A stretch of 64,000 nt of DNA from Spirosomataceae bacterium TFI 002 (GTDB lineage: Bacteria; Bacteroidota; Bacteroidia; Cytophagales; Spirosomataceae), in the NCBI GenBank assembly GCA_900230115.1, contig LT907983.1:3735001-3799000 (forward strand), read 5' to 3'. Both the position numbers and the translations under genes were made by a program. How positions within the stretch are numbered: the stretch's first letter is position 1; each line of letters opens with the position of its first letter. The notes under the pieces were generated by a model that made no database searches, was not told the origin of the DNA, and saw only the letters and a program-made list of their open reading frames with translations. This document shows, piece by piece, positions 37,378 to 48,767 of this stretch.

Positions 37378-39095
37378 GAGGCTGTCTCATTATAAACGTG
37401 GGTCAGCCTTCTTTTTTGAATAAAAGTGTAATTCTTGTGACAATCTCTTCTGGTTTTGGTGCGGGGAGTTTAAAATGAGGCCGAAATAGCCCTTATGAAG
37501 CCATTTTTTGGATATTGTGTGCAAGGGCGAGCAAGCCCGTTTCGATGAGGACTTTTTCTTTTCCTCTTAACATAAATCTTCTGAAGTTTTTGTTTTGCTT
37601 GATGTTTCCAAAGACTGCTTCCACATCTGCTGGCCTTTGGGAGCGATGTTTTATTCCCTCTGGACTTAGTAGCTTTTGTCGTGCTTTGTCTTTTAATCTT
37701 TTTGCATTGTGATTGACTTGGACAAGTCGATTTCCTTTGGCTTTGTGGCAGGCTCCTTTCAATGGGCAATTGTCACAGTTTTTTGCTTGATAAAAGCTTA
37801 TTTGTTGTTGGTATCCAGATTTTCTTTTCTCTGTTTTTTCATAGACTTTCTCCATTTTTTGACCCATCGGACAGATAAAAAAGTCGTTCTCCGAATCGTA
37901 ATACAGGTTCTCTGACTTGAAGGCATCTTCAGGCTTTATCTTCCCTTTGGCTTTTTGCTCTTTATGGAAGTAATTGTATTTCACATAGCCCTCAAGTTCA
38001 TTGTTCTCTAAATATTGATAGTTTTCTTCCGAGCCATAGCCGGCATCGGCCACCACTTCTTCTGGTAATTTTTTATAGAGCTCTTTGAAGGTTTCTAGGT
38101 GGAGTGGTAAGGTATATACATCGTTGGCATATTGGTAGATGTCGTAGTTTAGAATACATTGATTACAAGTACTTATCTGCCAGTTGTAGCCCGCTTTTAG
38201 CTGACCATTGAGCATGTGGTCGTCTTTCATTCGCATAAAAGTGGCATCTGGATCTGTCTTGGAATAGGAGTTTCGATCACCCATCAGCTTTTGCTGAACT
38301 TCGTATTTCTTTAGATTCTTTGGCCAATTGTTCTTTGCATAATTCAGCTTTTGCTTCACTTTCGGATCTACTTCTTTGCCTTTTAAGGCTTGATTGATTT
38401 GCCCGATAGTCTGTTCTACTTTTTGAGAATCTATCTTTTCAAAAATAGTGGGCGAGTTATCTTTCATCTCCTCGGAGGCTACCTTTTCGGCATAGTTCCA
38501 AAGGTCTTTAAGCTGTTCTTTTATCCTTTCTGTATTCCGCTTTATAGACTTGCCCCATACAAAAGTGTATTTATTGGCATTGGCCTCTATTTTGGTTCCA
38601 TCCACATAAACCGTCTTTAAATCTACCAGTCCTTGATCTGCCATCAGTAAAACGACTTGACCAAAAACCTCTTTCAATACCGACTTCAATCTATCCGTTC
38701 TAAATCGGTTTATTGTATTATGGTCTGGTCGCTGCATGCCAGCAAGCCACATGAAGTGAATGTTTGAACTGACGGCTTCTTCTATTTTTCGAGAGGAATA
38801 AATATTGCTGATATAGCCGTAAATAATAATTTTTAACATCATTCGTGGATGAAATGATGAACTTCCGCCTCCAGAATACTTCTGCAATAATGAATCAATA
38901 TCTATCTCATCTATGATTCTTTGTACCAATCGAACCACGTGATTTTCGGGAATTAATTCATTTAACGATGGAGGAAGAAGGGATAGCTGATAAGGATCAT
39001 AATCCTTAAATACAGGCTTCTTTTTGACTCCTTTTTTCATAACTGAAGTTACAAAAAAATCTATAAAAAAGAGACTGCCCTTTTGAGACAGCCTC
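37378..39095. mobile_element. IS1182-family insertion sequence
   Basis: A 1718-base element has outer inverted repeats GAGGCTGTCTCA (37378-37389) and its complement TGAGACAGCCTC (39084-39095). An imperfect inner extension pairs GGGTCAGCC with GGGCAGTCTC. It carries one transposase gene on the minus strand. It was inserted in the short gap between convergent genes (OMPP1-like and aroK), leaving both stops intact. No clear target duplication is seen: the flanks read ACTATA and ATGTTC. The open transposase frame and paired ends suggest it can still move. Confidence 0.92.
37493..39040 (-). CDS. IS1182-family transposase
   Basis: The transposase cuts and moves the element. The 515 residues begin MKKGVKKKPVFKDYDPYQ, then LLPPSLNELIPENHVVRLVQ, with the HTH-like N-terminal region typical of this DDE family. 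Later come the DDE segments VYVDGTKIEANANKYTF, VVADAGYGSEENYQYLE and a Cys cluster with CDNCPLKGACH. VFGNIKQNKNFRRFMLRG is the last Glu-containing motif. The frame opens further upstream to 39112, outside the right inverted repeat, so I take the ATG at 39040 as the true start. No frameshift was noticed. Confidence 0.93.
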   Translation of the reverse strand: MKKGVKKKPVFKDYDPYQLSLLPPSLNELIPENHVVRLVQRIIDEIDIDSLLQKYSGGGSSSFHPRMMLKIIIYGYISNIYSSRKIEEAVSSNIHFMWLAGMQRPDHNTINRFRTDRLKSVLKEVFGQVVLLMADQGLVDLKTVYVDGTKIEANANKYTFVWGKSIKRNTERIKEQLKDLWNYAEKVASEEMKDNSPTIFEKIDSQKVEQTIGQINQALKGKEVDPKVKQKLNYAKNNWPKNLKKYEVQQKLMGDRNSYSKTDPDATFMRMKDDHMLNGQLKAGYNWQISTCNQCILNYDIYQYANDVYTLPLHLETFKELYKKLPEEVVADAGYGSEENYQYLENNELEGYVKYNYFHKEQKAKGKIKPEDAFKSENLYYDSENDFFICPMGQKMEKVYEKTEKRKSGYQQQISFYQAKNCDNCPLKGACHKAKGNRLVQVNHNAKRLKDKARQKLLSPEGIKHRSQRPADVEAVFGNIKQNKNFRRFMLRGKEKVLIETGLLALAHNIQKMAS

Positions 39096-39115
39096 ATGTT
39101 CAAAATGATCAATGT

Positions 39116-39662: not shown

Positions 39663-40769
39663 TTATTTTAAAATTGATTCTACTTCTTCGGCTGTAGGAA
39701 TACTTCTGTGACTCCACTTCGCCTTAACGGTGCCATTTTGTAACAATATGATACAAGGATTTGTTCTTGCCATTGTTTTTAAAACCTTCTCATCTATTGA
39801 ATACGCCGGTATATTTATTCCTGATTTACTTAAATATGTGCCTAGTTCTTCTAATCCTAATGAGCTAACGACCATGGCATCAGCTACTTTAAGGTCTTGC
39901 CCTAATTTAGCCAATGAGCTTAGTTGACTTATTGAAATATTTTCTTTCTTTTTGATACAAACCAGCAATTTTGCGTTTTCAAAAGTATCGCCAGTAACGT
40001 CATTGCCTTCGATGTCGCTGATAGAATAGTCTGTGATTTTTGGTCTCAGTAAGTCTTCATTCAAAATTATTGATGATACATACATATACTTATTTGTGTC
40101 CATCAAGTATTCAGCCGATGTAATTTCGTTGTTGCTTTCTTTATCTAAAAAAGTATACACGAACTCGGGTTTTATTCCTGTTGGTTGCATTTGATCTCTG
40201 ATGTTCAAATCTTTTGCATAAGGCAAGAAATCTATCATTGGGAGATACATCTTGCCATAAATCCCAATACCAAATGCAATGACTGTTCCAATTAATGTAA
40301 CGGGCAAGGCAAAGGAGTAGGTCCCAAATTTCTTTCGGTAGAAAAATATAATAAGTATAACTGCGAGACTAATAATGTCTTTGTAAAAAGATGTCCAAGG
40401 CTTTAGTTTTAAGAAATCTCCAAAACATCCACAGTCTGTAACTTTATTAAAGTAGGCAGAGTAAAAGGTGAGGAAGGTGAAAAAGCCCATCATAGCTAAT
40501 ACTATCCAGGCGGTCTGTGGCATTTTGAATTTTACCAATAACGCAACTCCTAAAATCAATTCTCCTGCACAAAATAGTAATGAAAGCAATTGGCTTTGAT
40601 TTGCGAAAATCTCAAAAACACCGCTCATTGCAGGTAGGTCCTGAGCAAATACTTCAAAATACTCTTGAAGTTTTAAGCCAGTCCCGTAAGGGTCCACAAC
40701 TTTGACAAAACCAGAAAACACGAATTCTATACCCACCAATATGCGGGCTATGTTTGCAATTAATTTCAT
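39663..40769 (-). CDS. DoxX-like membrane protein of the BT_3928 type
   Basis: The N-terminal half has four transmembrane helices of the DoxX/MauE fold, starting MKLIANIARILVGIEFVFSG and including the cysteine motif VTDCGCFGDFLKLKPW near residue 110. The C-terminal half (about 190-368) is soluble, with no thioredoxin Cys pair visible. The start at 40769 is chosen over 40793 because it overlaps the DUF1599 stop in an ATGA junction. These genes travel with DUF1599 and folP in many Bacteroidota. A redox or disulfide-linked role is a guess from the CGCFG motif. Confidence 0.85.
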   Translation of the reverse strand: MKLIANIARILVGIEFVFSGFVKVVDPYGTGLKLQEYFEVFAQDLPAMSGVFEIFANQSQLLSLLFCAGELILGVALLVKFKMPQTAWIVLAMMGFFTFLTFYSAYFNKVTDCGCFGDFLKLKPWTSFYKDIISLAVILIIFFYRKKFGTYSFALPVTLIGTVIAFGIGIYGKMYLPMIDFLPYAKDLNIRDQMQPTGIKPEFVYTFLDKESNNEITSAEYLMDTNKYMYVSSIILNEDLLRPKITDYSISDIEGNDVTGDTFENAKLLVCIKKKENISISQLSSLAKLGQDLKVADAMVVSSLGLEELGTYLSKSGINIPAYSIDEKVLKTMARTNPCIILLQNGTVKAKWSHRSIPTAEEVESILK

Positions 40770-41281
40770 TGATTTGAAAGCTTTATCATACAAAAAACAG
40801 CGTAATTAATGATATCTTGGTAGCCGGCTTTTATGCCTTCTGAGATAATGGTTTTTCCAGAATTATCTTCAATTTGCTTTATTCTTAACAGCTTCATTAA
40901 GATGATATCCGTCATGCTACTTACACGCATTTCTCTCCAAGCTTCACCGTAGTCGTGATTTTTATTAAAAAGAAGTTCTTTTACTTCTGCTATCTCATTT
41001 TGATACTGTTCTTTCAGTTCATTTTCATCACCACGTATCAATATAAGTGCCATTACACAATAGTTGATAATGCCAATAAATTCTGGAGATTGCCCTTCGT
41101 CTACCTTAGAAAAGCCATTTTCTTGAATAGTGCGGATTCGCTGTGCTTTAATAAAGATTTGATCAGTGATAGATGGCAGCCTGAGTATCTTCCATGAGGT
41201 ACCGTAGTCCTGATTTTTTTTTGTGAAAATATCCAAGCAATTATCTATTACTTGCTGATATTCTTTCTCGGTTTGCTGCAT
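40766..41281 (-). CDS. DUF1599 protein (tandem nucleotide-modification-associated domain)
   Basis: The 171 residues contain two copies of one module: first KKNQDYGTSWKILR with FIKAQRIRTIQENG and FIGIINYCVMAL (about 16-78), then KNHDYGEAWREMRVSS with LMKLLRIKQIEDN and YQDIINYAVFCM (about 105-168). DUF1599 is also annotated as nucleotide-modification-associated domain 1, but no function is proven in ordinary Bacteroidota. It starts 41 bases from the divergent folP and overlaps the DoxX gene. Confidence 0.85.
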   Translation of the reverse strand: MQQTEKEYQQVIDNCLDIFTKKNQDYGTSWKILRLPSITDQIFIKAQRIRTIQENGFSKVDEGQSPEFIGIINYCVMALILIRGDENELKEQYQNEIAEVKELLFNKNHDYGEAWREMRVSSMTDIILMKLLRIKQIEDNSGKTIISEGIKAGYQDIINYAVFCMIKLSNQ

Positions 41282-42234: not shown

Positions 42235-42280
42235 CACCTATCATAAACCGTTGCAATTAACTTTAAACTTAAAATATATT

Positions 42281-44377
42281 ATGAAAAGAAAGATACTTTT
42301 TCTCTTCAGTTCCTTGTTATTAACATTTTCGAGCTTTGCACAACCTACAACTCCTGCTAATGTAATGGCGAGTCAAGAGAGTACGTCAAGTGCCAAAGTA
42401 AAAGTGACTTGGTCTGATTTGACGATTACTGGAGACCCTGGTCAAGAGGATGGATTCGTTGTTGTAATAAAAAATGCATCAATGATGACTGTGGATAGTG
42501 CAAGAGTTGGAGTGGGCGTTACCACACACACTACGTTTGCATCTGTTCCTGCAGGGACATACACTGTGACGGTTCAAGCATTTCAAGGGAACGGATCTCC
42601 TAACCCTTACGTGTACAGACCAGTTGCACCAACACCTGTATCTGTAACTATAGCAAACTTTGTTTTTGGTCAACACAACCTTTCAGTAGAGTTAGATCAA
42701 ACTACAAACAATAGTGCATTTTTTCAATGGGATGCAACTCAATCACAATCAATTGATGGTTTTGATTTTACTCTCGTAGATCTTGATGCGGGTACAAGTT
42801 CAACTAGAAGAATTCCTTTTCAGAATTCTTATCAGTGGAATAATCTTTCAGGAAATACAAGATATTCTGCAAGAATAGTACCTGTTAAAGGTGCGGTTTT
42901 TGGAAATCAATCAAACACGGTTTTCTTTACAACAAAACCAAATGCTCCTCGTCCTCCATCATTACAATTGCTTAAAAATTGTCCTGATGAAATATTATGG
43001 AGAATTATACCACAATCAGGTGATATTATCGAAGAGTATGTAATTCAGAAAGCTTTCTCAGCTGGTGGGCCTTGGATAGGTTTAGGTTCGAGAGCACCTT
43101 ATGAGCCTTACTTAAGTGATGGCGAAACTGATATCAATCAGGGAGTAAATACAGTATTTTATAGAGTAATAGCTTATAACGAAACTGGAAATTCTATATC
43201 TTCTGTTGCTCAAGCTGTTCCTAACAAATATACAGGACCTCCTGCTCCAGTAGGAGTATTTGGTGATGAGTTAACTCCATCTTCTATTACTTTTAAGTGG
43301 ACTAACCCAGTAACTGACACAGAGTGTAGTACTAATATTATAAGAGAAATTGCATACAGATATAGCGTAAATGGTGGTCCAGAAGTTTTGGGTGGTTTGT
43401 TTCCAGGTGAAACTTCATTCCTTATTGATGGATTGAATATGAAAGATACCGTGAAATTTGAAATATGGTATTTCTCTACTCAAGGACTTATTTCTCCAAT
43501 TTCTGAATCAACTGCAAGAACGCTCGGACCTCCTGATGCACCAACAAACCCAGGTTTGTTCGGATTTGTTGATAGTTTAGGTAATTATGTAATCAGAATC
43601 TTTGCAATTGATGCAGCTGAAGACGAAGATGGATTTGAGTTCTTTATTGGAACATCTCCAGAACTTGCAAGTTTGAAGTCAGCAGGAAAGACAAAGTTTG
43701 TCAATGGTACTGGTGGAGATGTTTTCTTCTTCCAGAAGCCTCTTGAAGAAGGTGTGAAGTATTACTATGCAATTAGAGCATTCAATTACTTAGGACCTGG
43801 AAACTTTACTAAAGTCTTGACTAATAATGAAGATAACTTCACTCAGGCTCCAACTTCTCCTTTCAATTTGAAAGCGACTGCGGGTGCTGCTGGTGTAGTA
43901 CTTACATGGAGAGATGATAGTAACCGTGAAGCGAACTTTGTTATTGAAAGAGCTGCGGGTGGTACTACAACATGGACTAAAGTAGGTGAGGTTGGTCGTA
44001 ACATCTTAACTTACACTGATGCTACTGCTACAGCTGGTGCTGCTTACTCTTACAGAGTGATTGCAGTGAATCCAATTGGAAGCTCAGCACCTTCTAAAGT
44101 TGCAACTGTAGGAACTGTTGCTGAAACGCAAGGTATAGTAGGAGTTTATCCAAACCCAACTACTGATATGTTAAATATCAAGATGCCTGAAAAATATGAC
44201 GGTACTAAAGGAAGCATCATGTTAATTGATAAGAACTTCAGAGAAATATTCAAATCTGATGTGAAATTCAATGCAGAAGGTACTTCTTTAGATATGACGA
44301 AATTTCCAGAAGGAATGTACAACGTAATTATTATTACTGATGATTATAAATACTCTAAGAAAGTACAACGTTTCTAA
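42281..44377 (+). CDS. Fibronectin-III protein with a type IX secretion signal
   Basis: This 698-residue secreted protein has a signal peptide (about 1-21, LLLTFSSFAQ) and several fibronectin type III-like domains, recognisable at about 22-125, 320-415 and 530-615 (for example VVLTWRDDSNREANFVIERA and AYSYRVIAVNPIGSSAP). The C-terminal domain starts VGVYPNPTTDMLNIKMPE and ends KKVQRF, a type A T9SS sorting signal. It is therefore expected to be exported across the outer membrane and anchored or released. I chose the start at 42281 because the signal peptide begins there. No catalytic domain is visible, so an adhesive or structural role is likely. Confidence 0.88.
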   Translation: MKRKILFLFSSLLLTFSSFAQPTTPANVMASQESTSSAKVKVTWSDLTITGDPGQEDGFVVVIKNASMMTVDSARVGVGVTTHTTFASVPAGTYTVTVQAFQGNGSPNPYVYRPVAPTPVSVTIANFVFGQHNLSVELDQTTNNSAFFQWDATQSQSIDGFDFTLVDLDAGTSSTRRIPFQNSYQWNNLSGNTRYSARIVPVKGAVFGNQSNTVFFTTKPNAPRPPSLQLLKNCPDEILWRIIPQSGDIIEEYVIQKAFSAGGPWIGLGSRAPYEPYLSDGETDINQGVNTVFYRVIAYNETGNSISSVAQAVPNKYTGPPAPVGVFGDELTPSSITFKWTNPVTDTECSTNIIREIAYRYSVNGGPEVLGGLFPGETSFLIDGLNMKDTVKFEIWYFSTQGLISPISESTARTLGPPDAPTNPGLFGFVDSLGNYVIRIFAIDAAEDEDGFEFFIGTSPELASLKSAGKTKFVNGTGGDVFFFQKPLEEGVKYYYAIRAFNYLGPGNFTKVLTNNEDNFTQAPTSPFNLKATAGAAGVVLTWRDDSNREANFVIERAAGGTTTWTKVGEVGRNILTYTDATATAGAAYSYRVIAVNPIGSSAPSKVATVGTVAETQGIVGVYPNPTTDMLNIKMPEKYDGTKGSIMLIDKNFREIFKSDVKFNAEGTSLDMTKFPEGMYNVIIITDDYKYSKKVQRF

Positions 44378-44397
44378 GAGTAAAAGGATAAATACTA

Positions 44398-44434
44398 AAA
44401 GCCTCGGTTCAATTGTGGATCGAGGCTTTTTTTT
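44398..44434 (+). terminator. Rho-independent terminator
   Basis: AAAGCCTCG (44398-44406) and CGAGGCTTT (44421-44429) form a nine-base stem followed by T residues. It ends the T9SS-cargo gene and lies just ahead of the thiolase-like start. Confidence 0.9.
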
Positions 44435-44450
44435 GTGTTATTTTGAATCG

Positions 44451-45572
44451 ATGAAGGAAGTCTTTATTTATCATATTTCAAGAATACCAACTGGTAAAAA
44501 AGGAGGCGTTTATAAAAATGTTCCTCCCGAAGTGCTAGGTGCTTTTTTGATAGATAATTTATTATCGGGGCATAATTTTGACTTAAAAAGTCATGGGGAG
44601 CTGATTTTAGCCAATTCTATTGGGACTATGGGTAATATGGCTCGAAACTGTCAATTGAGATCAAGCCTACCCAAGGAAATAGTGGCAACAAGCATAGACT
44701 TTCAGTGCGGTGGGGCTTATAAGGCCATCCAGTTAGCTTCAGCTCAAGTGATGAGTGGGCAATGTGATTGGGTCTTAGCGGGAGGAATAGAAAGTAATAG
44801 CTTGCAGGCCGAAAGGAACTATCACTTAAATGATCCAAGAAGAATAAGTAACGAGCCAATACAAACGGCAGACTTCTCACCAAATGGATCAGTTTCACTG
44901 GCTCATGCTGCTGAAGAACTGGCCTTGAAGTATCGTATTTCTAAGAATCAAATGTTAGACTGGATGCTGAGGAGTCATCAAAAGGCATCGGAAAGTTTTA
45001 ATAATAGACTCTTTAATAATAATGTTTTTCCATTTTCTTCTGATCAGTTACAAGATGAATCAATACACGCGAATTTATCTAAAAAGCTATTAGAGAGAGC
45101 ACAAAGTGATAGCTTGATCGACCGAACAAACACTGCTGATTTTCATGATGGAGCAGGTATTATATTAATGGGTACTAAGGAGTTTGGTGAAAGAAACGGT
45201 TTTAAATCTCTTGGTAAAATAACAGAAACAACTTTTGTTGGACTTGATCCTAATCATTCTCCTGAAGGTGCTCTAGTAGCTAGTAGAGCTATGTTTAGGC
45301 AAATAGATAAAGGTTCGATAAATATATTTGAAATTTGTGAATCATATGCAGTAAAACCTTTAGCATTCGCACAAGAATTTCAAATACCTTTGGAGAAAGT
45401 TAATGTTTTAGGTTCCAATTTAGCAATGGGGCATCCATTTGCAGCTTCGGGAATTATAAATATTCTAAATTTGTATTTGGGATTACAAACCAAGGGGTTG
45501 AAAAGAGGTTTAGTTTCAGCTGGTATAGCAGGAGGTTTAGGTGTTAGTATGGTCCTTGAAATAGACAGATGA
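44451..45572 (+). CDS. Thiolase-superfamily condensing enzyme lacking the second cysteine
   Basis: The fold is that of thiolases: IDFQCGGAYKAIQLASAQVM with the nucleophile Cys86, DWVLAGGIESNS, and GSNLAMGHPFAASGI with His328. The final loop, where thiolases have a second catalytic Cys in CxGGGxG, reads SAGIAGGLG, with Gly358 in that place. The ORF begins at 44340 within the previous gene's tail, but MKEVFIYHISRIPTGKKGG at 44451 is the clear family start. The downstream acyl-CoA ligase overlaps by four bases. The product is unknown. A condensing or acyl-transfer role with activated acids from the partner is inferred. Confidence 0.82.
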   Translation: MKEVFIYHISRIPTGKKGGVYKNVPPEVLGAFLIDNLLSGHNFDLKSHGELILANSIGTMGNMARNCQLRSSLPKEIVATSIDFQCGGAYKAIQLASAQVMSGQCDWVLAGGIESNSLQAERNYHLNDPRRISNEPIQTADFSPNGSVSLAHAAEELALKYRISKNQMLDWMLRSHQKASESFNNRLFNNNVFPFSSDQLQDESIHANLSKKLLERAQSDSLIDRTNTADFHDGAGIILMGTKEFGERNGFKSLGKITETTFVGLDPNHSPEGALVASRAMFRQIDKGSINIFEICESYAVKPLAFAQEFQIPLEKVNVLGSNLAMGHPFAASGIINILNLYLGLQTKGLKRGLVSAGIAGGLGVSMVLEIDR

Positions 45573-46825
45573 TAATAGATCAAATTTTAAATAACTGTAA
45601 TCAATTAAACTCTAAAATAGCTATCAGCTACCAAGGGCGAAAATTGACTTACGCTGATTTAAAGTCTGCTATTCATCAAAAGGTTAATGAGCTTGAGGCA
45701 ATTGACTCTATTATTATTCCAAATATTAACCCTCTTGATACGATTGTCCAATTCTTAGCCGGGGCACACAAAAAGAAAAGGTGTTTGGTTGTTCCAAAAG
45801 ATTGGAATAAGAACTTAAACGAGCTTGAAGACGAAGCTGCTTCAGGTCATTTTGAAATTGGTATCTTAACTTCTGGTAGTACTGGAGAGCCAAAAGTAAT
45901 TTGGAAATCGAATGATAACTGGGAATTGGCATTCAATCACCAGTCTGATTTATTTCGAATAAATGAAAAAGACAATGTATTCACAATAGATGCCCTTTCT
46001 TATTCGGCCAATCTAAATAGTGTAATTCATACCCTGTGGTGCGGCGGATCTGTTATTCTTGATTCACTAAAAAATGCAAGTAGCTGGAGTCAAGTAATTC
46101 AAGAGGAAGGAGTGAGTTCAATTTTTTTGGTACCTTCTCACTGGAATTTGCTGTTAAGTAAAGTTGAGCTTTTCGCAAATGTACGTTCTTGCCTTACAGC
46201 AGGTGAAAAGCTAAACGGAAAACAGGCAAAAGCCATTCTCAAAGCATTTCCCAATTCGATTTTAACGGAATATTACGGTTCGGCAGAGTTGGGTCATATT
46301 ACTTATCAGCAAAATGAAGAGATAATAAATGCTCCTCAAAGCGTAGGAAAGTCATTTCCAAGTGTTAAAATATCGATTATTGATCAGCAAATTCATGTCA
46401 ATAGCCCCTATATAGCAGCTAAATTCAAAGAAAAAGGGACGGTAGGAGACCTAGGATACCTTGAAAACGATCGACTTATCTTAATGGGAAGGTTGGGTCG
46501 AATGTTTAATAAGCGTGGAGTCAATGTTTTTGCTCAAGAAATTGAGCAAGTTATTTTGTTGCATCCATTAGTTGGAAAGGCTTACCTACATAGTGTCAAT
46601 GTACTTTCTATTCAGAAATTGGAATTGCTTTATGAAACCAATTCAAGAAATGACTCTCCAGATGAGAGTGAACTTTGGGAGCTACTAAACCAAAAGGTAG
46701 AAAAGGCAAAGCATCCGCATTTTTTAAAGAGGGTTGTAGAAATTCCCACAAACTCTAATGGTAAAATTGCAATTGGGCAATTGAGTAAAAAATTAGATGA
46801 AGAAGCAGTGGTTTATATGACCTAA
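45569..46825 (+). CDS. Short AMP-binding acyl-CoA ligase (ANL family)
   Basis: The adenylate-forming motifs are present: ILTSGSTGEPKVIWKSNDN (A3), LTEYYGSAELGHITY (A5), GDLGYLENDRLILMGRLGRM (A7/A8) with NKRGVNVFAQEIEQVI, and NSNGKIAIGQLSK (A10). At 418 residues it is shorter than most ANL enzymes, because the N-terminal part is reduced. The start shares an ATGA overlap with the thiolase-like gene, so they act together. The substrate, probably a carboxylic acid, cannot be read from sequence. Confidence 0.85.
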   Translation: MIIDQILNNCNQLNSKIAISYQGRKLTYADLKSAIHQKVNELEAIDSIIIPNINPLDTIVQFLAGAHKKKRCLVVPKDWNKNLNELEDEAASGHFEIGILTSGSTGEPKVIWKSNDNWELAFNHQSDLFRINEKDNVFTIDALSYSANLNSVIHTLWCGGSVILDSLKNASSWSQVIQEEGVSSIFLVPSHWNLLLSKVELFANVRSCLTAGEKLNGKQAKAILKAFPNSILTEYYGSAELGHITYQQNEEIINAPQSVGKSFPSVKISIIDQQIHVNSPYIAAKFKEKGTVGDLGYLENDRLILMGRLGRMFNKRGVNVFAQEIEQVILLHPLVGKAYLHSVNVLSIQKLELLYETNSRNDSPDESELWELLNQKVEKAKHPHFLKRVVEIPTNSNGKIAIGQLSKKLDEEAVVYMT

Positions 46826-46868: not shown

Positions 46869-48767
46869 ATGAAATATATCATTTGTGGCATTATGCTACA
46901 TATTTCTTTTCAAATAATTGCTCAAGATTCTACAGCAATTGATTTGAACGAGGTCTCCGTAACGGCAAATATTATTCAGACAGACCTTCAAAAAACTGCT
47001 CGAAATGTAAGTATCATATCTGCAATAGAAATTGCAGAAGCTCCTGTGAAATCGCTGGATGGTATTCTTCAATACGCCTTGAACTTAGATGTGCGAAGTC
47101 GCTCTCCATTGGGAGTACAGGCGGATATTAGCATTAGAGGTGGTCATTTTGACCAAACACTCATCATGGTAGATGGAATTAAGATGAACGATCCTCAAAC
47201 TGGACATCATAGCTTGAATTTGCCTATTCCAATGGAAATGATAGAGCGTATTGAAGTTTTGCAGGGTGGTGCTTCAAGAGTATTTGGGCCGAGTGCATTT
47301 GCTGGAATAATCAATATTATCACGAAGAAGATTATTGATAAACCAAATCAAATTAGAGCCACAGTGGGGCAGAATGGTTTATATGCTCTTGGCGGTCAAA
47401 CTGGCTTTCAAAAGTCAAAAACTAAGCTTTTTGTCACTGCTGACAAAATGCATTCCAATGGTTATGCATATAATACTGCTTTTGATAAGTTAAATATCTA
47501 CACAAAGCTAGATGTCGAGTTGAAGAGTGGATTTTTAGCGATTCAGGGTGGTTACCTGAGCAATGAGTTTGGTGCGTCCAATTTTTATTTTCCAAGCTTT
47601 TATGATCAATATGAAGAGGTGAAAGCAAAATTTGGAGCGATAACCTGGCAAAAGAATTTTACAAACAACTTTAGTTCGACTTTAAATGCGTCTTTTCGTC
47701 AGCACAATGACCTTTATGATTTCAACAAGTATCTTGAAAATGCCGTCGATAAAGTAAATTTCCACAGGTCAGATGTGTACGAATTAGAATGGAAAGGTCG
47801 TAAAATTCATCAATTTGGTGCAACAGCTTTTGGAGCTTCATTTAGAAATGAGTTTATCTTGAGTAATAGATTAGGAACTCAAAGAGCAGTGAACGTAGCT
47901 ATACCGAATTACGAAGGATTATTTTATGACCAATCTTTTGATAGGAAAAATTGGAGTGGATTTTTGGAGCACCAAAAAAAGGTTAATGATTTTCTCTTTT
48001 CTGGAGGGGCAATGGTTAATGTGAATAGTCAATTTGGAGTTCAAGTGTATCCGGGTCTAGATGTTTCTTATGCCTTGAATAGTAATACAAGTTTTTACAC
48101 TTCGTACAATAGGTCTTTACGCTTGCCAACTTTTACAGAACTGTATCTAAATGGCTCTACAGTTATAGCTGATGAAAATTTGTTGCCAGAAAAAGCCAAC
48201 GCTTTTGAAGTTGGTTACAAGTATAAGGATGATGGTTTTATGTTAAACTTGGCTAGCTTTTATAGACAGACCAAAGATGCAATTGATAAGGTTAAACGCC
48301 CCGACCTGCCAATTCCAACGATGGAAAATATCGACAATATTAACTTTGGTGGTATTGAGGTAAATTCGAAGATAGTTTTTCCTAAACTGGGGAAATTCAA
48401 AAGTCTACAGTTCAATTATGCCTTCCTGATGGCGGATAGGAAAGAAAATGGATTTCAATCTTTTTATACCTTAAACTTCTTGAAGCATAAGGCAAGTGTT
48501 GGTGCAAACTTTGAATGGTTGCCAAATTTGACAACTTCGCTTTGGTATACATTTAAGGATAGGCAAGGAAGCTATCAATTTTCGGCTAATGAGCCAGTAA
48601 TACCCTATGAAAATGTACATTTGGTTGACTTAAGGTTAGCTTATTCTTTTAAGGGAATTAGGTTTTTTGCTGACGTGAATAACCTTCTGGATTACAAATA
48701 CTTTGAATTTGGCTTTGTTGAACAACCAGGAAGATGGATTAGCACTGGTTTGAGTTATGCTTTTTGA
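46869..48767 (+). CDS. TonB-dependent outer-membrane receptor
   Basis: This 632-residue BtuB-like receptor imports a ligand with TonB energy. The signal peptide (about 1-18, ISFQIIAQ) is followed by a TonB-box-like stretch DLNEVSVTANIIQ. The plug has GVQADISIRGGHFDQTLIMV then DGIKMNDPQTGHHS and IERIEVLQGGASRVFGP. The barrel ends with FVEQPGRWISTGLSYAF. No carboxypeptidase-like N-terminal domain or SusD partner is present. The gene follows the ligase by 43 bases on the same strand. The ligand is unknown; BtuB similarity suggests a small cofactor or metal complex. Confidence 0.92.
   Translation: MKYIICGIMLHISFQIIAQDSTAIDLNEVSVTANIIQTDLQKTARNVSIISAIEIAEAPVKSLDGILQYALNLDVRSRSPLGVQADISIRGGHFDQTLIMVDGIKMNDPQTGHHSLNLPIPMEMIERIEVLQGGASRVFGPSAFAGIINIITKKIIDKPNQIRATVGQNGLYALGGQTGFQKSKTKLFVTADKMHSNGYAYNTAFDKLNIYTKLDVELKSGFLAIQGGYLSNEFGASNFYFPSFYDQYEEVKAKFGAITWQKNFTNNFSSTLNASFRQHNDLYDFNKYLENAVDKVNFHRSDVYELEWKGRKIHQFGATAFGASFRNEFILSNRLGTQRAVNVAIPNYEGLFYDQSFDRKNWSGFLEHQKKVNDFLFSGGAMVNVNSQFGVQVYPGLDVSYALNSNTSFYTSYNRSLRLPTFTELYLNGSTVIADENLLPEKANAFEVGYKYKDDGFMLNLASFYRQTKDAIDKVKRPDLPIPTMENIDNINFGGIEVNSKIVFPKLGKFKSLQFNYAFLMADRKENGFQSFYTLNFLKHKASVGANFEWLPNLTTSLWYTFKDRQGSYQFSANEPVIPYENVHLVDLRLAYSFKGIRFFADVNNLLDYKYFEFGFVEQPGRWISTGLSYAF

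Follow-up and report, generated by a model that had tools for sequence, protein, structure and literature searches.

What does a thiolase-like protein do when it lacks the second catalytic cysteine of the thiolases and is encoded together with a short adenylate-forming ligase? This question is raised by a locus of Spirosomataceae bacterium TFI 002, located in the 64,000-nucleotide stretch of contig LT907983.1 (positions 3,735,001 to 3,799,000) that was analysed as a whole and is referred to here as the window. The open reading frame (ORF) of a 373-residue thiolase-like protein with Thiolase_N and Thiolase_C Pfam domains (44451..45572, forward strand) shares an ATGA overlap with that of a 418-residue ligase of the ANL type with an AMP-binding Pfam domain (45569..46825, forward strand). 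After a gap of 43 bases, a third gene on the same strand encodes a 632-residue TonB-dependent outer-membrane receptor (46869..48767; Pfam Plug and TonB_dep_Rec_b-barrel), a layout that the initial annotation of this DNA, made from the sequence alone, had read correctly. The pair of enzymes is very probably linked to biotin, and the three-gene unit more likely than not serves biotin acquisition, by salvaging or remodelling an acid related to biotin, for which we infer both the substrate and the reaction. The initial annotation did not anticipate the link to biotin; its observation is confirmed and its interpretation is partly supported.

One sign of this link is that, in the family to which the window belongs, the pair and biotin synthesis exclude each other. 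Among 181 genomes of this family with a completeness of at least 90%, 20 carry the pair thiolase, 105 carry bioB, and none carries both (Fisher p 5.5e-9). Since genomes of the same genus cannot be counted as independent, the count by genus gives the fairer figure: the pair is present in 6 of 30 genera and bioB in 18, none of them shared (p 0.0016). The same picture is obtained with a smaller set of 31 genomes, where bioB is absent from all seven genomes with the pair (one of them just 63% complete) and present in 17 of the 24 without it, and with bioA, which scores over its cut-off in none of 21 pair genomes of the family, in six of eight bioB genomes, and in none of four genomes with neither.

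A second line of evidence comes from other phyla, where the pair is found beside the gene of the biotin importer BioY. A scan of genome contigs with the ligase alignment returned 46 loci. In 18 of them (L037-L054), from Stappia and relatives, Beijerinckiaceae, a Rhodobacteraceae metagenome-assembled genome, three Marinococcus, and Bacillus ectoiniformans, bioY is followed by the ligase and then by the thiolase in every case (the bioY match of L053 being partial), with ECF genes in several, and the adjacency of the two enzyme genes extends to all 18 of these loci from other phyla. The 11 weakest ligase loci (L055-L065) yielded no thiolase or bioY match and were set aside. Plasmids gave 655 records with a match, and bioY lies beside the pair in two of the four that were examined among the 20 listed: a Salipiger abyssi plasmid carries the ligase, the thiolase, an ABC ATPase, EcfT, and BioY in a row, and pSymB from Sinorhizobium meliloti carries an ECF ATPase, EcfT, BioY, an unannotated ligase, and the thiolase. 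The order of the pair is thiolase–ligase in the window's family and ligase–thiolase elsewhere.

The BioY-linked group is tied to a named family by the thiolase of the Bacillus locus (L044), which is a full member of PRK06690 (582 bits, for a cut-off of 498); among the control genomes, B. subtilis is one of those with a match, and one control lies above the cut-off. PRK06690 and PRK07638 are presumed here to correspond to YhfS and YhfT of B. subtilis. These are also the best specific models for the window proteins, although both scores are far below the cut-off (187 bits for the thiolase, and 140.5 bits for the ligase, where 518 are needed). The likeness to the staphylococcal vraB/vraA arrangement noted in the initial annotation pointed in a useful direction, although neither window protein scores as a member of PRK06690 or PRK07638.

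Regulation also connects this group to biotin. Upstream of bioY, all four Bacillota units (three of them from Marinococcus) hold a site with two or three mismatches to TTGTAAAC-N15-GTTTACAA, which we take to be the consensus of the BirA operator; the sites lie 78-89 nucleotides upstream of where the bioY match begins, and none of 100 shuffles of each sequence reached their scores. A consensus scan for BioR boxes returned nothing convincing; the figure of none in 200 shuffles obtained for four loci (L040, L043, L046, and L053) was discarded, as it corresponds to poor matches where the upstream stretch is masked with N. The link between BirA and YhfS/YhfT was already known. In S. aureus, a reporter assay showed biotin-dependent repression of the yhfS-yhfT promoter by BirA, and gel shifts showed that the protein binds this promoter (PMC6391492); the operon is listed as a BirA target together with bioO and bioY (PMC7235819), and it is named as such in both B. 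subtilis and S. aureus (PMC11089781). In the passages concerned, yhfS and yhfT receive just putative names, and the passages on S. aureus biotin in PMC12642757 do not mention the pair. No assigned reaction for the pair turned up in the literature searched, and neither did the family-wide loss of the cysteine, the receptor, or the exclusion of bioB.

The two enzymes of the window are homologous to the pair found with BioY in other phyla, and in the window's family the receptor stands in the place of BioY. A close homologue of the thiolase is found in seven of 59 genomes searched as relatives, including the window's own. In the six others, the ligase comes directly after the thiolase, with a 4-base overlap in five and a 1-base gap in one (as counted from the nearest start codon, L008 containing unread bases), and is followed by a receptor with 50-55% identity to that of the window. 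The trio is intact in these six relatives despite different upstream genes in three of them and, in L017, different downstream genes too. Likewise, at the 17 loci of the Spirosomataceae type (L020-L036, some of them from the genomes just mentioned), the receptor follows the ligase in all cases, and the thiolase precedes it in 16, the remaining locus being cut by a contig end, which bears out the coupling of the two genes claimed in the initial annotation. At the genome level, with up to 34 candidates scored in each genome, all 13 pair genomes and none of 24 other genomes of the family possess the receptor (E <= 1e-100). As judged by gene order and co-occurrence, therefore, the receptor is part of the unit. 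The initial annotation had suggested that it could link the pair to an imported acid or an exported lipid; the link stands, whereas nothing was found in favour of the exported lipid. Among proteins of solved structure, those closest to the receptor in sequence are the vitamin B12 receptors (BtuB), but its score against TIGR01779 (TonB-B12) is 128.2 bits, below the cut-off of 599.7. Across the phylum, with up to three candidates per genome scored, receptor matches were obtained in 59 of 392 genomes, the window's own included, and the other 58 share 30-36% identity with it.

The departure of the thiolase from the normal active site, as proposed for the window gene in the initial annotation, is a trait of the whole family. 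Codon positions and alignment place its nucleophile, Cys86, at 44706-44708, the histidine of the GHP motif, His328, at 45432-45434, and Gly358, in the position of the second cysteine, at 45522-45524, all as originally read. In an alignment that spans three phyla and comprises 39 pair thiolases (the window, 16 of the Spirosomataceae type, 18 from L037-L054, and four from plasmids), Cys86, His328, Asp83, and Gln85 are invariant, and position 358 is occupied by Gly (17), Ala (15), Pro (6), or Ser (1), but never by Cys. Gly358 is therefore neither private to the window gene nor a sequencing error. By contrast, all six ordinary thiolases used for comparison (AtoB, FadA, FadI, and PaaJ from E. coli, and the two further thiolases of the window's genome, a single contig of 5.46 Mb) hold Cys at position 358, and none of them holds Asp83 or Gln85. 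As a second control, a profile search of the 392 genomes of the phylum (up to five candidates per genome scored) gave 471 bits for the window's genome and 329 for the next best; of the 30 loci with the top matches, less the window itself and L133, the 28 readable ones are ordinary Bacteroidota thiolases and hold Cys at this position. The position of the NEAF asparagine (residue 296; 45336-45338), with Asn in five of the six ordinary thiolases, holds Asn in 23 pair thiolases, Met in 15, and Cys in the window protein alone, where Cys296 might partly stand in spatially for the lost cysteine. A tree separates the 39 pair thiolases from the six ordinary ones with a support of 100/97, the window lying on the side that lacks the second cysteine; some branches are long and composition varies among rows, which makes the internal details unsure.

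The fold nevertheless remains that of a thiolase. The predicted model of the window protein (pLDDT 93.6) has solved thiolases as its best fold matches (TM score about 0.85-0.93), and its score against TIGR01930, the general acetyl-CoA acyltransferase model, is just below the cut-off (233.6 bits for 240.55). In the thiolase from Z. ramigera, the second cysteine acts as the base and abstracts the proton in the condensation (PMC3406046). Because of this, the pair thiolases should still be acylated on Cys86, but are not expected to catalyse the usual condensation of acetyl-CoA in either direction, and the name acetyl-CoA C-acyltransferase that they bear in databases is probably wrong.

In the 22 ligase rows aligned, out of 36 available, the positions that we take to be the P-loop core, the Glu of motif A5, and the Asp of motif A7 are invariant, together with the C-terminal Lys (Lys399 in the window, 46763-46765). 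The protein is indeed shortened, as the initial annotation held, with 418 residues for the 487 positions of PRK07638, and its model (pLDDT 84.9) is ANL-like, its best fold matches (TM score 0.6-0.75) including MenE, DltA, and further enzymes that adenylate their substrates. By these motifs it belongs with the ANL adenylate-forming enzymes and is predicted to carry out adenylation and thioester formation, but neither motifs nor fold name its substrate.

Taken together, these features are consistent with a route in which a carboxylic acid that resembles biotin and is scarce would enter through the receptor in the outer membrane, and the ligase would activate its side-chain carboxyl, first as adenylate and then as CoA thioester. 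The acyl group would next be loaded onto Cys86 of the thiolase-like protein, with the help of His328, and passed on. Since the usual proton-abstracting cysteine is gone, this last step would be either a simple transfer of the acyl group or a base-independent condensation, for instance with a malonyl thioester that loses its carboxyl group as CO2. Import through the receptor or BioY, followed by activation and by transfer or extension of a biotin-like acid, would explain the neighbours of the pair, its regulation where this is seen, and the pattern of auxotrophy. The most attractive end result would be the rebuilding of biotin from a relative with a shortened side chain, such as bisnorbiotin, a known metabolite of biotin (PMC10670868); that this compound is common in the habitat of these bacteria is a guess. 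In its full form, this proposal amounts to a salvage pathway not yet recognised, comprising import of bisnorbiotin or a similar acid, its activation, and reconstruction of the side chain by a base-free, possibly decarboxylative condensing thiolase, fed in Bacteroidota by a dedicated TonB receptor for biotin vitamers, and is put forward as a reading of low probability.

Chain extension would fit the further enzymes encoded near the pair outside Bacteroidota. An MDR reductase is found within 8 kb of it in seven of 22 loci, from four lineages (L047, L050, L067-L069, L039, and L042), mostly next to the pair or one or two genes away, and several genes away in L042. The two reductases that were compared have, as their nearest solved relatives, first a generic quinone reductase and then 2-enoyl thioester reductases of mitochondria, the latter with best E values of 2.7e-33 (L039) and 1e-22 (S. 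meliloti). The rhizobial loci also hold small acyl-CoA thioesterases of the YbgC/FadM type, one of them over its cut-off, and R. leguminosarum adds an annotated SDR. Together with the ligase and the condensing enzyme, these proteins could form a chain-extension set, although an extension by two carbons in particular is regarded as doubtful. In two Rhizobium plasmids (L067, 7144-10296, and L069, 7411-10569), a thioesterase–ligase–thiolase row is accompanied by the MDR reductase in a stretch that contains no bioY; these pairs perhaps have a related but separate function.

Several observations weigh against a role in biotin acquisition. These two records of the R. leguminosarum group hold the ligase and the thiolase with no bioY within 8 kb, the MDR gene is missing from 15 of the 22 loci outside Bacteroidota, and no extension enzymes adjoin the unit of the window, where this task would fall to genes elsewhere in the genome. 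The window thiolase is just 25-30% identical to the BioY-linked ones. In the window's family, BioY scores over its cut-off in none of 37 genomes, with two weak matches below it, which leaves the inner-membrane step unexplained; the scan for BirA-like sites found none in the window and none at 16 loci of Spirosomataceae; and 56 of the 181 genomes lack both bioB and the pair. Outside Bacteroidota, bioB is present in seven of 18 pair genomes of unstated completeness and absent from 11, so the pair is independent of biotin synthesis there and not confined to auxotrophs. Finally, no biotin or pair genes were found beside 20 loci of the distant receptors in other Bacteroidota families (L158-L177), the sole exceptions being two matches to ordinary thiolases several kb away; one of the 20 stretches spans just 4.4 kb.

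Some of these points can be read differently. It has been considered that the pair belongs to a biotin-sparing fatty-acid metabolism, in which acetyl-CoA carboxylase fails when biotin is short and fatty acids taken up from outside are activated and modified by the pair without that enzyme, biotin being connected to it by regulation and need and not as a substrate. The BirA control and the occurrence in genomes without bioB fit this explanation, as do the names given by depositors to proteins of the YhfS/YhfT kind in the entries concerned (fatty-acid ligase and acetyltransferase). However, the operon neighbours are a biotin importer or a BtuB-related TonB receptor, and acetyl-CoA condensation is not to be expected of a protein without the second cysteine, if the account of PMC3406046 is extended to it, which makes this explanation improbable. 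An equally improbable one is that the Spirosomataceae unit has diverged from the BioY-linked pair and serves a different scarce acid, unrelated to biotin, as its low identity to the BioY-linked thiolases, its different gene order, the lack of BioY in the family, and the BtuB-like receptor would suggest; its occurrence solely in genomes of the family without bioB would then be due to chance or to a shared lifestyle.

The supply of pimelate or another dicarboxylate, activated by the ligase and lengthened or shortened by the thiolase to a pimeloyl thioester, would account for the biotin-dependent regulation of yhfS-yhfT and for the seven pair genomes outside Bacteroidota with bioB. But in the window's family bioB is found in 0 of 20 pair genomes and bioA over its cut-off in 0 of 21, and 11 of the 18 outside it lack bioB too, so that a pimeloyl thioester would have nowhere to go; as a general role it was rejected and is considered highly improbable. 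That an ordinary β-oxidation thiolase and a fatty-acid ligase are neighbours by chance, as their thiolase and ANL folds, the several active-site residues kept, and the database name of the Bacillus family might suggest, is scarcely credible in view of their fixed partners (ligase, receptor, or bioY), and was rejected on the second cysteine missing from all 39 sequences and the well-supported split from the six ordinary thiolases.

Between the unit and the upstream gene, a terminator-like hairpin of 15 pairs followed by a T-run was found by consensus scan (44397..44430, forward strand). The upstream gene itself (42251-44377) encodes a large protein with, by eye, fibronectin-III-like repeats and a C-terminus resembling a sorting signal; a homologue precedes the pair in just three of the six relatives, so it looks like local synteny and was rejected as a part of the unit. 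The downstream queD-like and lpxB-like genes were likewise rejected, neither of them adjoining the unit in L017. Further upstream, inspection by eye also revealed an ORF resembling an insertion-sequence transposase (37493-39112, minus strand) and a small protein whose two halves resemble copies of each other (40766-41281, minus strand).

The occurrence of the pair in genomes that apparently do not make biotin, the loss of its second cysteine, and its association with a receptor in one family narrow its function towards biotin acquisition. If the salvage reading is true, genome-based predictions of biotin auxotrophy and of vitamin cross-feeding would need to take the pair into account, and biotin or its vitamers would gain a candidate receptor in the outer membrane.

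Among known systems, the closest are YhfS and YhfT encoded beside BioY in Bacillota (PRK06690 and PRK07638), which share with the window the adjacent ligase and thiolase and a biotin context, the PRK06690 member of L044 also lacking the second cysteine. In the window, however, the thiolase precedes the ligase, the TonB receptor replaces BioY, there is no BirA-like site, and the proteins reach 187 of the 498 and 140.5 of the 518 bits needed. The BioY–ECF–ligase–thiolase units of Alphaproteobacteria (Salipiger, Sinorhizobium meliloti, and Stappia) also combine the two enzyme types without the second cysteine, but hold genes of an inner-membrane importer where the window has the TonB receptor, and the NEAF asparagine is Met in Stappia-type thiolases. 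In the staphylococcal VraA/VraB system, the ligase and thiolase genes are adjacent as well, but the ligase comes first, followed in the region described by vraC and one more gene (PMC10620731). AtoB, FadA, FadI, and PaaJ from E. coli and the thiolase from Z. ramigera share the fold, the nucleophilic cysteine, and the GHP histidine with the window protein; unlike it, they possess the second cysteine, but neither Asp83 nor Gln85, both of which are found throughout the pair family. TLP1 from Mycobacterium smegmatis, another protein with a thiolase fold and altered fingerprints (PMC3406046), no longer possesses the nucleophile or the GHP motif, both of which are kept in the window protein. Lastly, BtuB is the nearest protein of solved structure in sequence terms, but the window receptor reaches 128 of the 599.7 bits of the cut-off and, in its family, is tied to the thiolase–ligase pair and not to B12 genes.

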